Positions 2,976 to 64,000 of a stretch of DNA of 64,000 bases are shown here, in pieces. This DNA is from Chondrilla cf. caribensis (lineage: Eukaryota; Porifera; Demospongiae; Chondrillida; Chondrillidae). Below the pieces are notes generated by a model. The model did no database searches. It had not been told where the DNA came from and worked only from the letters and a program-made list of their open reading frames with translations. The first letter of the stretch is position 1. Every line of letters begins with the position of its first letter. Where the stretch lies: the NCBI GenBank assembly GCA_964020155.1, contig OZ026565.1, positions 1,263,501 through 1,327,500 on the forward strand, in the 5' to 3' direction. The position numbers were made by a program, and so were the translations under genes.

Positions 2976-5900
2976 ACACACAAACAGTGAACTTCACTTT
3001 GAGGTCAACTCTTCACAACATTGATTTTGGGCTAGTTGTGGATGGAGTGACTTTCTACGACTGTTCAGTGAGAGACAAGTGAGTGTATGCATGTACACCT
3101 CATGTACAGTACTCCCAACACACCTGTACTTCCTCTCTGTGTGTACATGACCTATTCTTCATCTCTTTAGTTGTTCTTCTTGTGTGAGTTCCTTGAACTG
3201 TAACTGGTGTCCAGTTGAGTTTGATTGTAGAACAAGTGGAGGTGACTGTAGCTCCAGTCCAGTGGTGAGTGGTGTACTGACATTCAATGTAGATGTTTCC
3301 TATCTCCAATCACTTGTTGCTTCCTTGTCCTCTCCCTCACCAGAGCACCAGTGGATCATGTCCACGTGTTCTACCTTCCAGTACTAATGATGGTAGGTAC
3401 TACCTTCACGAAGGTCTCTCCCCACCAGATGTGTCCTTGATACTGAATGCACAGAATCTGATATCACCAGTGAGTGTTGGTATGAGTTGTATGGTCTAAT
3501 GTACACATTGATGATGTGCTGTCTTGTACATCCAGCCTGTTGGGTACTCCTATCAGTGTGAGCTGAGTGATGTAGGAAGAACCTTCCCAGCTGTGGTCCA
3601 CAACAGCTCTACCCTTATCTGTAACATTGACAATACTGTGTCCATCCCACAAGCCCAGACTGAGTCTCCTCTAAGACTGTTGTGGAGTAACAACAACACA
3701 ATGATGAACTTTCCTATTGAGTCCAGCAGTGGAACAGATCAGAGAGGTTTGTTGTGTGAATGCACACTTGAATGTTTGTTGTTTGTTTGTTGTTTACATG
3801 TACTGATACCCATTTATATGGGTTCTTTGTATGTGTCACTGGTCGTCCTCACATGTACTGTTGCCATCCTCTCATTCCCTGTCTGTTCATACAGTTGTAC
3901 TCTACAGCTGTCCAGAGCTTGCTGTGGACTGCTCTAGTTGTATTGGACTGAACGACAACTTCAATTGTGCCTACTGTACCACTGCTAGTGGTGGATCTTG
4001 TATGCTGTCCACACTGAACTGCAGTTCAGGTTCTCTTGTTGAATCACCAAACTTTGACCAATGTCCAATTCCGATATTTGATGAGGTTTGTACACATGAA
4101 CATGACTGTGTGAATGCATGTATTGGGTAGTTATAGCGTAGCATCATATCCTCATCCATTCCAGACCTCTCCAGCGTCTGGTCCTGTTGAAGGAGGTACT
4201 CTCTACACCATCAGAGGTAGTAATCTTGGTGCCTATCCTAGAGAGAATGTCACTATTCTGATTGGTGGAAAGGAGTGTCCAATAAACTCAAGTACTGACG
4301 GCAGTCTCACGTGTGTTGTTCCTCCAGCAACATCTGAAGGAGAAGTAGGTGTGACCCTCAGTCGCAGTGGTGAAGTTCCTCATAATGTAGGAAGGTACAG
4401 ATATGCCGCTCCCGTGGTAACCATGGTGATGCCTCTCAAAAGTCCCATTGGAGGAGGCACTACCATATCTGTGATAGGTGTGGATCTAGACATTGGTAAT
4501 GTTGAGGGAACCAGTGTAGCTGTAGTGTTCAGTTCATCAAGAAAGAGACGGACATCATCAACACTGCCCTTGAGCGATGTGATGTAAGTACAGATCCCAT
4601 CATTGAACCTTAACACCCCAAGACACAGTCCCTCCCACTCTCCCTTCATACAGGGTGATCAACTCCACTCACATCTCGTGTAGAACAGTTGATGTATCAA
4701 GCTCTGTATCAAGTGGTCAGAGTGGGACTATCATTGTCAACATTGACGGCAATGTCTATTCTAATGGTAATGTTCAGTTAGAGTATGTCCAACCTGTGTT
4801 TAGTGGACTATTTGACAGCGCTGATATTGGTCGGGAGGAGAGTCTACTTCAAGGGTGAGTGTTATGATGGTGTTGTTCACTTTCTGTTGGTTACAAGCTG
4901 TTGTACCAACCCTGTCCCCTCCAGTGGTGGAGTTCCTCTGATTATTGTTGGTGCCAACCTGGATGCTGCTGTGTCTCCAATGTTGACACTCACTGCAGAT
5001 GGTGTCCAGCTGATCAATGTGGTGAGTGGATTCTGTACAATCATATACTAGGCTAACGACCCTATTCTTTAGTGTATAAACATGACTACACACAGTGAGT
5101 GTCGTAAAGACGTACGTACATGTACACGTACATTACATATTTCACTTTTTCCCTACAGACCTGTAGAGTGGTTTCACCCACTCAGCTATTGTGTATGATT
5201 CCTGAACTAACCACTGTCACTAGTGGTGCAAGTCTGGACTATTCATTGACATTTGATGATCAAGTATTGTCTAGTCTGTCCTCGGTCCAACCTCTGAGAG
5301 CAGTAGCTGATCCTGTGTTCAATGGATCTTCTCCAACTCAATATGCAGAGAACAGTAACCTACTTCTTACTATATCAGTGAGTACACCAGCGTTACGTCT
5401 ATGTTTAAAATTGAGTATTCGTAGAAATACACACTTTATGCAGTTCAATGTCAAAGAAAGGCTTAAACTATCAAAATGGTCATTTCTTGTTTTTATTGTG
5501 TACCTTATAACCATTTCTATGAAATTCATGTCCTAAAATTACGTACTTACACATGTGCCTGTAACCTGTCAACACACCCTATTATTATTGTGTAGATCAC
5601 TATGTACATACGTATGTGCGAGGAATGGGAAAGGAGGCCCACACTATCAAAGTTTTCATTGCATAGTTTTGTTTTACCATAATAACCATTACTGAGATTT
5701 ACGTATGTCTCAAAATTACGTTCATACACCTGTAACCTGTCAACCCTATTATTATTGTCTAGATCACCCTGTGCAAATGTACATATGTACATATGTGCAA
5801 CTGTATGGATACACCATAATTTGCTTCACATTTTACATGAACACCTTTTCACCACAGGGGTCAAATCTCAATAATGTGAGAGAAGCAGATTACAACATCA

Positions 5901-7346
5901 CTGTTGGTGGAGCACCATGTCCAGTGTTCAGGATCACTGAGAACAGTGTAGCCTGTACACCTCCACAAACTGGACCAGGTGGAATTAGGACCTCGCTACC
6001 TGTTATTGTGAGTACATGTGTGTATGTGTGTGTGTGTGTGTGTGTGTGTGTGCGTGCGTGTGTGTGTGTGTGTTTTGATCATTACCCTGACATATTATAT
6101 AGTACAATCAAATTCTGATGTAGTTAGTCCTAATTGGTTGCATATACCATGAACCAAAACCGATAAAGAATGTATAGCTATGTGCAGTCTATACACTAAA
6201 TATAATATGGCACATACACTCAGACTCTAAAATTTAAATTGGGAATTTTATTTAAATTTTAATACAATACTTCATTAATTAACAACATTGATACGCAATC
6301 TGCTTCTCACCACAGGTCACTGTTGGCAGTCGTGATGGTGTTCAAGTTGGCACTTTGGAGTATACAATAGATCCGACCATCATCATAGCAGTGTCTGTAG
6401 TAGGTGGATTGGTAATTGTTGGTGTTATTCTAGCAATCTTCATTATCTATTGCTTGTGTGGGTGCTACAAGAGGAAGACAATAAAAGCAGAAGCTCGTGC
6501 TATCGAACTGCAAGAAAGAATTGAAAGAGAAAGAGCGGAGAATCTGAAGAAACAAGAAGTACTCGAACAACAAGTGGAGAACATGGCTTCTCAAGTGGTC
6601 GTGGTGCACTCTCAGATGAAAGGTACTGGTTGGTGCATAGTAACCTTCAGCTCTGTTTTATGCAACAGTAAATGTCCTATCGGCCAGTATGCAATGACAG
6701 TATGAGAATCCATCACCTACCCACCACCACAAAAATAACTTATGTAATTCACTTGAGTGAATTAATTATTAAAATTTAATATCAATGTGTTAGAATGTCA
6801 CCAACTCAAGTTCTATTAGGATTGCTAGTGTCATTGACTATATTCTCCAAATATCTGTATTGGACTATAGAGCTGGTTCAAGGCAAGGGATCACCTGCCA
6901 ACTATTACAGTGAAGTTAAGGACAGAGAGTATGAACAAGTGAAGGATGCTGATGGATGTGCAGAGGTGAAAGAGGTTGAGGAGTACGAGGTGATGGATGG
7001 AGATGAAGGAGAAACTTCCACAAAACCTGAAGTACAGAAGAATGACCCTGAACAATACATGGATATGAGTGGGAACAACCCCCTACCTCCACCAGTGGTC
7101 ACCAGCCAGGAACCACCAAACCAGACCATCCAGCAGACACCATCTGATGAGGAGTGTGAGGTGAGGACCAGTGATGGAGGGGGTTCACGTCAAACTGCTG
7201 ATGAGAGCCAGTCATATGTCAACGAAGATGAAGACCCATCACTGAATGTCCATTGCCCATTGACCAAGAACCCAGCATATGGACTTCCACCAGTTGGCAT
7301 CCTTCAATCTGATCATGATGTCACTGATAATGGGACACAACAGTGA
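2976..7346 (+). CDS. Type B plexin-like receptor, exons 6-17 only (5' part missing)
   Basis: Twelve exons align one-to-one with exons 6-17 of the complete type B gene at 15738-24952: 2976-3078, 3171-3264, 3344-3469, 3536-3746, 3895-4085, 4165-4583, 4654-4854, 4925-5021, 5159-5377, 5858-6007, 6316-6622 and 6871-7346. All have GT/AG borders and the phases close to a TGA at 7344-7346, giving about 863 codons. They encode PSI modules (CSSCVSSLNCNWC; VDCSSCIGLNDNFNCAYC), several IPT/TIG segments, a transmembrane helix, a juxtamembrane coiled coil and a tail with one NPAY unit. The tail keeps a long acidic section with YMDM that the other B genes have lost. Exons 1-5 (signal peptide, sema, first PSI) are absent. 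Homology to B intron 5 starts near 2750, directly against retroelement sequence. It is either a truncated relic or uses an unknown 5' exon; the lack of any frame damage argues for recent truncation. Confidence 0.8.
6017..6073 (+). repeat. (TG)n tract at start of B intron 15
   Basis: A nearly pure TG microsatellite begins about 10 bases after the splice donor of exon 15. The equivalent introns of the other two B genes have TG tracts in the same place. Confidence 0.9.
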
Positions 7347-62914: not shown

Positions 62915-64000
62915 ATGTTCTTTGTCGCTTTGTTATTGCTTTTGGTTCGAGAAAGTGATTGTCAATCCAATCAGTCCAACAGTGTCCTAACCTCCTCCAT
63001 CCTCAAAAGCGCCTTAGTGAGCAAATCTGGTAACGTATTCGTCTCGGACTTCAACACGGTCTATCTCCTCAATGGAGACTTGAGTGAAGTGATCCAGATG
63101 GACAGGAACGAAGGACAGTCTCCCGAAGGAATGACTCTGACCAGAGATGAAGGTAGACTCGTCGTGTGTTGGGCCAATTCGGTTGATAGCGGTGGTCAAG
63201 AAGTGAACACTGCTCCTTGTTCGATCTACAACTCGTCCACTTTGGATGTTCTTGTCAACGTGACACTACCTGCATCAACTGGAGTAGGAGCTCCGAGAGG
63301 AAACAGATACTTTGTCAGCAGAGGGTTCACTGGTGGCAGTGGAGAGACGTTCTTTGTCATGTCTGTCATGAATGATATCACATTGTCGCCCTTCAGAATT
63401 GTTACTCGACGTCTTTACCATCGTGAATATAGTGTTTCCAACGGAAAAGTTGAAAGACAAGAGGTTCATGACCTTCAAGATAGTGATTTGACCAGTCGAA
63501 CCTACCACAGCGGAATAACCGTGGGTAACTACACGTACATAGTCGCAAGCGATTATACAGGTAGTAGAAGACTTGTTAGTGTGATTAGATTGTGTGACAG
63601 CACTACAAGATGGGATAGCTGGTACGAGATTCAACTCATCTGTGGAACAGTCAGTGGAACACTATCAGACTTTAGTAATTGGTTGTCAGACGCCAATTTC
63701 TTAACAGTAGAGGACGGAGCCAGTGAAGCCATGTTGTTGGTGACAGTGTTGACATCGGGATCTGATGTAACATGTAGTTTTCCACTGTCTAGTATAGACT
63801 CAAGTGCTAGAGGATTACTGCAGTACTGTCAGAGTAACAATGTAACACTGCCTTTTCCATGGATCAAAAGAAATATTGGAGAATGTGGATCCAGTGTAAG
63901 TAGAACCTTTATCAAGTTATACATTATACTGGCATTGCATGATCATCAATATTAGGCTTAGGCTAAACGTAATGGAGTTGAATGTAGCTAGCTAGAAATT
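62915..64000 (+). CDS. Type B plexin-like receptor, exon 1 (gene continues past window)
   Basis: Exon 1 runs 62915-63895 (327 codons) and ends GGATCCAGT before a GTAAGT donor, exactly as in the two complete B genes. The start is the ATG of MFFVALLLLLVRESDCQS; the upstream in-frame GTG is not a eukaryotic start. The exon encodes the signal peptide and about 300 residues of the sema-like domain (NTVYLLNGDLSEVIQMDRN, PCSIYNSSTLDVLVNVTLP). Compared with the other copies it has its own in-frame variants in the segments after FFVMS, after HDLQ and after YIVAS. Later exons lie beyond 64000. Confidence 0.88.

Follow-up and report, generated by a model that had tools for sequence, protein, structure and literature searches.

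A sponge array of plexin-derived genes without a RasGAP domain and with a shared, putative phosphotyrosine-docking tail

Plexins are receptors that act through an intrinsic RasGAP domain. In the sponge Amphimedon queenslandica, four of six plexins have a short intracellular part with no conserved domains, as described in passages of PMC6374515, and a plexin is upregulated in Amphimedon pinacocytes according to a passage of PMC6823388. Here we analysed a 64,000-nucleotide stretch of the Chondrilla cf. caribensis genome, called the window (contig 20, abbreviated C20, 1263501-1327500; assembly of 137 Mb in 37 contigs), which holds plexin-like genes arranged head to tail, all on the plus strand. 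Coordinates without a prefix are window positions, and those with the prefix C20 are contig positions. The gene models are predictions from genomic sequence alone, produced by a small gene finder trained on the region and its flanks and then corrected by hand. Three genes, A2, B2, and A3, are complete within the window, and a fourth, A1, begins upstream of it. They fall into two families, A with 17 exons and B with 22, with open and phase-consistent exon models (GT/AG introns and consistent phases in A2 and A3); comparing the window with itself gave 140 repeat pairs of at least 150 bp. An earlier interpretation made from the letters of this DNA (the sequence-only reading) had proposed two plexin-like families in a tandem, recombining array on one strand, and our models bear this out. 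Its type B seemingly corresponds to our A family and its type A to our B family. We propose, with a probability of roughly 0.55, that the array genes encode plexin-derived surface receptors without a RasGAP domain that would signal via a shared phosphotyrosine-docking tail binding SH2 and PTB adaptors.

Ectodomain and tyrosine-motif tail

Judged by profile matches and alignments, the ectodomain of the array genes is plexin-type. In Pfam, A2 matched TIG (6e-30) and PSI (6e-7), and B2 matched TIG (4.6e-20), PSI (4.9e-11), and TIG_2 (4.3e-7). Against the PDB, A2 aligned with Plexin-A2 (E 5.7e-45 over residues 360-848) and Plexin-A4 (1.9e-44 over 379-1076), and B2 with Plexin-A4 (E 1.8e-52). The Pfam matches and the collinear plexin alignments place a PSI and IPT/TIG series in plexin order in both proteins, as expected of the plexin-derived ectodomain that had been proposed. 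The three PSI modules of that proposal agree with the collinear alignments, but the PSI stretches that Pfam scores number only one for A2 and two for B2. Likewise, the anticipated TIG and PSI matches were obtained, but the Pfam Sema model gave no match in the array proteins; a search of the genome with this model also gave none, but it gave none in all 14 control genomes either. In a low-confidence predicted structure of the divergent Sema part, a plexin Sema domain tops both the Foldseek and the VIA lists, which points to a Sema beta-propeller as the head of the ectodomain, and we count it as such.

The intracellular part had been described as a short acidic tail. We translated 14 tails, seven from the array and its flanks and seven from other genomic places. 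The tail of the A5 gene outside the window was counted, whereas the set stands apart from the fragments at 41939-42085 and C20 1343697-1343897. The tails are indeed acidic (17-38%), but this description misses their length (115-362 residues) and their arrays of tyrosine motifs. As many as 132 of the 144 tail tyrosines lie in a YxxPhi, YxN, or NPxY context, compared with 5 of 37 in the A2 ectodomain, and for each tail the observed motif count was reached in at most 1 of 1000 shuffles. The shuffles and the ectodomain comparison together rule out a chance origin of the motifs. YEQV, YEEV, and YEVM units recur, mostly 8-12 residues apart, with up to 21 tyrosines in one tail, and YVN or YIN is found one or more times in every tail, as is NPxY. 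Units of 55 residues that contain NPAY number up to six per tail and lie 165 bp apart. The NPAY codons of A2 lie at 24077, 24242, 24407, 24572, 24737, and 24902, and A2 and A3 together have ten such units, all eight intervals between them being the frame-keeping 165 bp.

Ten tails were aligned, leaving out those of A2 and A3 and two further tails (L044 and L047). The ratio of nonsynonymous to synonymous divergence (dN/dS) is 0.52 in this set; four tyrosine columns are kept in all ten tails, one in nine, and one in all seven ungapped rows. YExV motifs are associated with Src-type SH2 domains, YMDM with p85, YVN and YIN with Grb2-type SH2 domains, and NPAY with PTB domains. Several adaptor-type motifs are present in the 14 tails, with conservation in the ten aligned ones, which is what we took to mark a tail for phosphotyrosine docking. 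In a large protein database, 124 candidate homologues of the tail were considered and none reached E 0.001, although this database seems poor in animals, so the result is not proof of uniqueness.

In the A genes, a coiled coil is encoded in the same exon as the transmembrane helix, and a single tail exon comes next. In B2, a type-B transmembrane exon is followed by a 90-bp exon matching the end of the type-A coiled-coil exon and then by the tail exon, all in phase. As modelled, B2 is an exon-swap chimera of two plexin lineages, and a single kind of tail exon was found on both ectodomain lineages.

GAP-bearing relatives and the variable Sema segment

Neither A2 nor B2 gave a Pfam match up to E 1 for the plexin RasGAP domain (Plexin_cytopl), nor for RBD, for which a genome-wide search was not made; a tyrosine kinase domain was also not matched by Pfam in the two proteins. 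Across the genome, ten stretches matched Plexin_cytopl, eight of them above the cut-off, and all lie in two places corresponding to canonical plexin genes. The gap between the transmembrane and tail exons is 466 bp in both A2 (23399-23864) and A3 (55174-55639). At the sensitivity of an exon-by-exon search, the two Plexin_cytopl places and the 466-bp gap led us to reject a hidden RasGAP exon downstream of the array genes, in agreement with the absence of the GAP noted in the sequence-only reading.

One of the two canonical genes, of type A, lies upstream of the array on the minus strand (C20 1213615-1232440, running into a masked stretch), with type-A ectodomain exons followed by GAP exons. Sixteen pieces of this locus cover residues 544-1527 of the database protein P0001 in order; two of them contain stops where the alignment crosses introns, and the gene finder left the pieces unjoined. 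P0001, from another sample, has both GAP and RBD along with a type-A ectodomain, which matches A3 residues 1-1330 at 65% identity over 98% of that stretch. The other canonical gene (C20 166476-174977) has a type-B ectodomain and the GAP in a single gene-finder model of 23 exons. The canonical relatives and P0001 show that both families have GAP-bearing members, so the two families are not independent new receptors. Because of this, and because GAP-bearing plexins occur in choanoflagellates according to passages of PMC6374515, the GAP-less array genes would be derived from GAP-bearing plexins. In exons 6-15, the type-A copies are 93.4-96.4% identical to each other in nucleotides, and the canonical type-A plexin is 94.6-95.9% identical to them. 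That it is as close to the copies as they are mutually suggests homogenisation. The canonical type-A plexin and the plus-strand gene A0 are divergently oriented (C20 1230000-1241266), possibly with a common upstream region; C20 1232501-1237500 is masked.

The head of the type-A genes appears to be variable. Among 12 full copies of exon 1, A2 residues 147-194 differ by 15.5% (0.155) compared with 6.9% (0.069) elsewhere in the exon, as measured between paralogues of one genome and with bounds picked after a sliding scan (circular-shift fraction 0.022; 2.5-2.8% without the most divergent copies). Gaps occupy 50 of the 363 columns of exon 1 and 0-6 columns of every other exon, and the divergence of 30-codon windows in exon 1 peaks at 0.231. 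Overall, the ectodomain varies most in this Sema segment. The variable residues lie in loops more than in strands (circular-shift fraction 0.025, weak model). A location of the variable loops on one propeller face was not established, the hypervariable residues falling on both loop parities (22 and 14) in this weak model. Semaphorin contacts of Plexin-A2 presumably lie close to the stretch that aligns with the variable segment, but passages of PMC7327498, PMC10206189, PMC8155012, and PMC7181871 gave no plexin residues for a check, and the point was not used. All 16 type-A exons tested have dN/dS below 1 (0.27-0.85). In exon 1 the value is 0.65, with some 15-codon windows above 1 and most below.

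What the receptors may do

In the mechanism that we favour, the plexin body with its variable Sema segment would engage a partner on the outside of the cell. The tail tyrosines would be phosphorylated by cytoplasmic tyrosine kinases, and SH2- and PTB-domain adaptors would then bind the phosphorylated tail. Expression, tail phosphorylation, contact of the Sema segment with a variable partner, and an output by adaptor recruitment are the parts that we infer. As to origin, a type-A plexin might have been duplicated and have gained a new tail after its transmembrane exon, recombination might then have placed a type-B ectodomain on the same tail, as in B2, and the copies could have spread in tandem with homogenisation.

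Several observations weigh against this proposal. Two tyrosines at the start of the tail are replaced in three of the ten aligned tails, YMDM occurs in just nine of the 14, and the A2 and A3 tails consist mostly of NPAY units with few SH2-type sites. Among the seven of 14 tails checked, none contains a strict immunoreceptor tyrosine-based activation motif (YxxL/I-x6-8-YxxL/I) or a strict inhibition motif ([SIVL]xYxx[ILV]), and an identity of the tail with either class was rejected. In the type-A genes, a window of exon 16, which holds variants of the transmembrane helix and coil, reaches a divergence of 0.315, above the 0.231 of the Sema segment, and exon 2, also part of Sema, reaches 0.181; fewer copies were compared for both of these exons. 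Because the variable segment also shows raised synonymous divergence and exon 1 has a dN/dS of only 0.65, positive selection is not shown, and for exon 1 as a whole it is not supported. Old segments that recombination has exchanged or balancing selection has held would be expected to show such a rise at synonymous sites. Finally, support for the tree of exons 6-15 is poor, and in it the canonical type-A plexin does not fall outside the array copies; because the tree does not settle ancestry, we infer the order of founder and derived genes.

YxxPhi and NPxY are also classical endocytosis signals, and the chief rival explanation builds on this. The GAP-less copies could be decoy or clearance receptors that bind the ligand of the canonical plexin, or pair with the plexin itself, and so blunt or remove its signal, with the tail serving endocytosis. 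The near identity of exons 6-15 to the canonical type-A plexin and the prevalence of NPAY in A2 and A3 speak for such a role. However, YMDM, YVN or YIN, and acidic YExV are atypical as sorting signals yet recurrent and conserved in these tails, and a decoy would have no need of a variable Sema segment or of as many as 21 tyrosines in its tail; we regard the idea as possible, though improbable. Decay, in which the copies would be mostly degenerating duplicates with no function of their own, has in its favour the four type-B and three type-A exon 5-6 fragments that lie in the window beside A1, A2, B2, A3, and A4. Still, the reading frames stay open through 17-22 exons in A2, B2, and A3, and likewise in A0 and A1, which lie next to the window or straddle its edge, and the dN/dS values below 1 in the type-A exons and the tails point the same way, so that decay seems highly unlikely.

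Two further explanations overlap with the proposal of a signalling docking tail and concern what the receptors might recognise. The variable Sema segment fits the self/non-self discrimination suggested in the sequence-only reading, and array haplotypes differing between individuals might decide fusion or rejection, an overlap on the ligand side. The tandem recombining array, the length changes of the variable segment, and the tyrosine-rich tail would all suit allorecognition, but the case comes from one genome, the single compared pair of type-B first exons is 92% identical with no comparable variable segment, and the usual candidate in sponges is the aggregation factor family. We therefore consider allorecognition doubtful. 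The receptors might instead sense microbes or damage as part of innate immunity, and a plexin-group gene and a Sema-domain gene of Halichondria panicea were upregulated 6 h after lipopolysaccharide (passages of PMC8242945). Those passages make no mention of GAP-less tails and offer no link to the loci described here, and we judge an immune role rather unlikely. Tentatively, the array might be an early-animal recognition system in which a homogenised plexin scaffold carries hypervariable Sema heads and has received, through an exon swap between two plexin lineages, one tail with phosphotyrosine docking units that expand and contract in frame, so that recognition and signal strength could both evolve by array recombination.

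The array and its comparison with known receptors

The features of the array and its immediate flanks are collected in Table 1. Fragments lie between the genes, but the piece at 2976-7346 is not a relic, being the 3' part of the complete gene A1. Three of the spacers hold type-B 5' sequence and, after it, exons 5 and 6 of type A (starting near 7816, 42483, and 56956). Type-B starts follow the preceding tail stop after about 410-470 bp (7346-7816, 24952-25399, 36987-37431, 42085-42501), so near that promoters must be compact or sit in the upstream gene. The B2 model was completed by correction against the canonical type-B gene. The stretch expected to hold exons 2-5 of A4 is masked, as is C20 1327501-1330000. 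Long (GT)n runs start exactly at splice donors (GTGTGT...) in introns, for example at 29016-29050 and 30864-30950, and are a likely source of splice-site slippage. The spacer before A2 has two reverse-transcriptase fragments (PF00078) on the minus strand, at 13490-14707 (E 1e-9) and 14862-15398 (E 2e-11), and the intron between exons 5 and 6 of A0 contains an open reading frame (C20 1245440-1247155, plus strand), which we take to be transposase-like.

Table 1. Predicted features of the plexin-like array and its flanks
Feature	Position	Strand	Evidence or remark
A0, another complete gene upstream of A1	C20 1241266-1253596		spliced model
A1 exons 1-5, upstream of window	C20 1255223-1262125		spliced model
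A1 exons 6-17 (3' part of complete type-A gene)	2976-7346	+	spliced model of 1444 aa, in consistent phase and with a single terminal stop
Type-B 5' exons followed by type-A exons 5 (11377) and 6 (12791)	7816-12891	+	gene-finder fragments; tblastn of A2 exons 5, 6
A2 (17 exons, 1646 aa), encoding a signal peptide, Sema, PSI/IPT series, transmembrane helix, coiled coil, putative docking tail	15738-24952	+	
A2 exon 1: N-terminal part of Sema with the variable segment (about residues 147-194)	15738-16709	+	
A2 exon 16, encoding the transmembrane helix and the juxtamembrane coiled coil	23086-23398	+	translation
A2 tail exon (362 aa) with six NPAY units of 165 bp (55 aa), in frame	23865-24952	+	
B2, 22 exons, 1412 aa: type-B ectodomain and transmembrane helix joined to type-A coiled coil and tail	25399-36987	+	phases consistent, one terminal stop
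B2 type-B transmembrane/juxtamembrane exon	35427-35664	+	tblastn: 75% identity to canonical type-B plexin of this genome, residues 683-762
B2 exon forming the swap junction	35778-35867	+	75% match to residues 72-103 of type-A exon 16
B2 tail exon (183 aa) with seven YxxPhi, one YxN, and one NPxY	36437-36987	+	
B3, partial type-B copy, then tail fragment (41939-42085)	37431-42085	+	
B4, type-B 5' fragment, then type-A exon 5 (44739) and exon 6 (46177)	42483-46270	+	
A3, 17 exons, 1552 aa: longer Sema variable segment, four NPAY tail units	46872-56397	+	splice model, alignment
Type-B 5' fragments followed by type-A exons 5 (60837) and 6 (62255)	56956-62340	+	
A4 exon 1, open	62915-63895	+	exons 6-17 beyond window

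The family extends beyond the array. Genome-wide exon matches, which are lower bounds and not gene counts, place type-A exon 1 at 25 sites, 12 of them full length and open at 79-100% identity, with one further full-length but distant copy at 39% identity. There are also 43 matches to the tail exon (several per tail), 20 to type-A exon 11, and 29 to PSI. The distant exon 1 belongs to a diverged A-like gene (C20 1370791-1382048; 5 kb of the locus masked) with a transmembrane helix and a very acidic Asp/Tyr tail that lacks NPAY. A further distant Sema-PSI-like gene lies at C20 366034-370015 on the plus strand, and A5 has a stop in its modelled transmembrane exon. Among type-B relatives in the large protein database, P0002 (802 residues) is 50% identical over 61%, with PSI and TIG_2 listed and GAP not listed, although its contig of 2887 bases may be truncated; P0003 and P0004 are 24-25% identical.

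For GAP-less sponge plexins, our searches of one open-access library gave no paper that treats tails with tyrosine motifs, an exon swap, or a hypervariable Sema domain. The tail anatomy, the exon swap, and the variable head appear to be new; GAP-less sponge plexins as such were already published (PMC6374515). The supposed lineage-specificity of the GAP-less family holds only in part, since Plexin-A1 to -A4 of A. queenslandica, beside two full-length plexins, have a short intracellular part without conserved domains; tyrosine motifs, arrays, exon swap, and hypervariability go unmentioned in the passages of PMC6374515 considered. Compared with canonical plexins, the array copies share the Sema domain, the PSI and IPT/TIG series, and the transmembrane helix, are collinear with Plexin-A4 and Plexin-A2, and stand near the two canonical plexins of the same genome, but they have neither the RasGAP domain nor RBD, carry another coiled coil, and end in the tyrosine-motif tail. 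In two lineages, a plexin outer body is joined to what appears to be a phosphotyrosine docking scaffold, within a genome where GAP-bearing members of both lineages persist. Should the tail signal, this would be a natural rewiring of a guidance receptor in a lineage whose self-recognition and immunity receptors are poorly known, and the array offers a concrete, sequenceable locus for testing such roles.

Hydractinia Alr and Botryllus fuhc are variable allorecognition receptors with other ectodomains, known to be polymorphic between individuals and to have a fusion phenotype. They resemble the array genes as variable invertebrate surface receptors, the variability of the array being that between paralogues of one genome. 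Met ends in a phosphotyrosine docking site. Both Met and Met-LP are receptor tyrosine kinases with a plexin-like ectodomain, according to passages of PMC6374515, and differ by their kinase domain from A2 and B2, in which none was matched. The array tails are motif-rich in a similar way to the docking proteins IRS-1 and p130Cas, but here the tail is carried by a single-pass receptor with a plexin ectodomain. In IRS-1 and p130Cas, many spaced tyrosine motifs serve several classes of adaptors.

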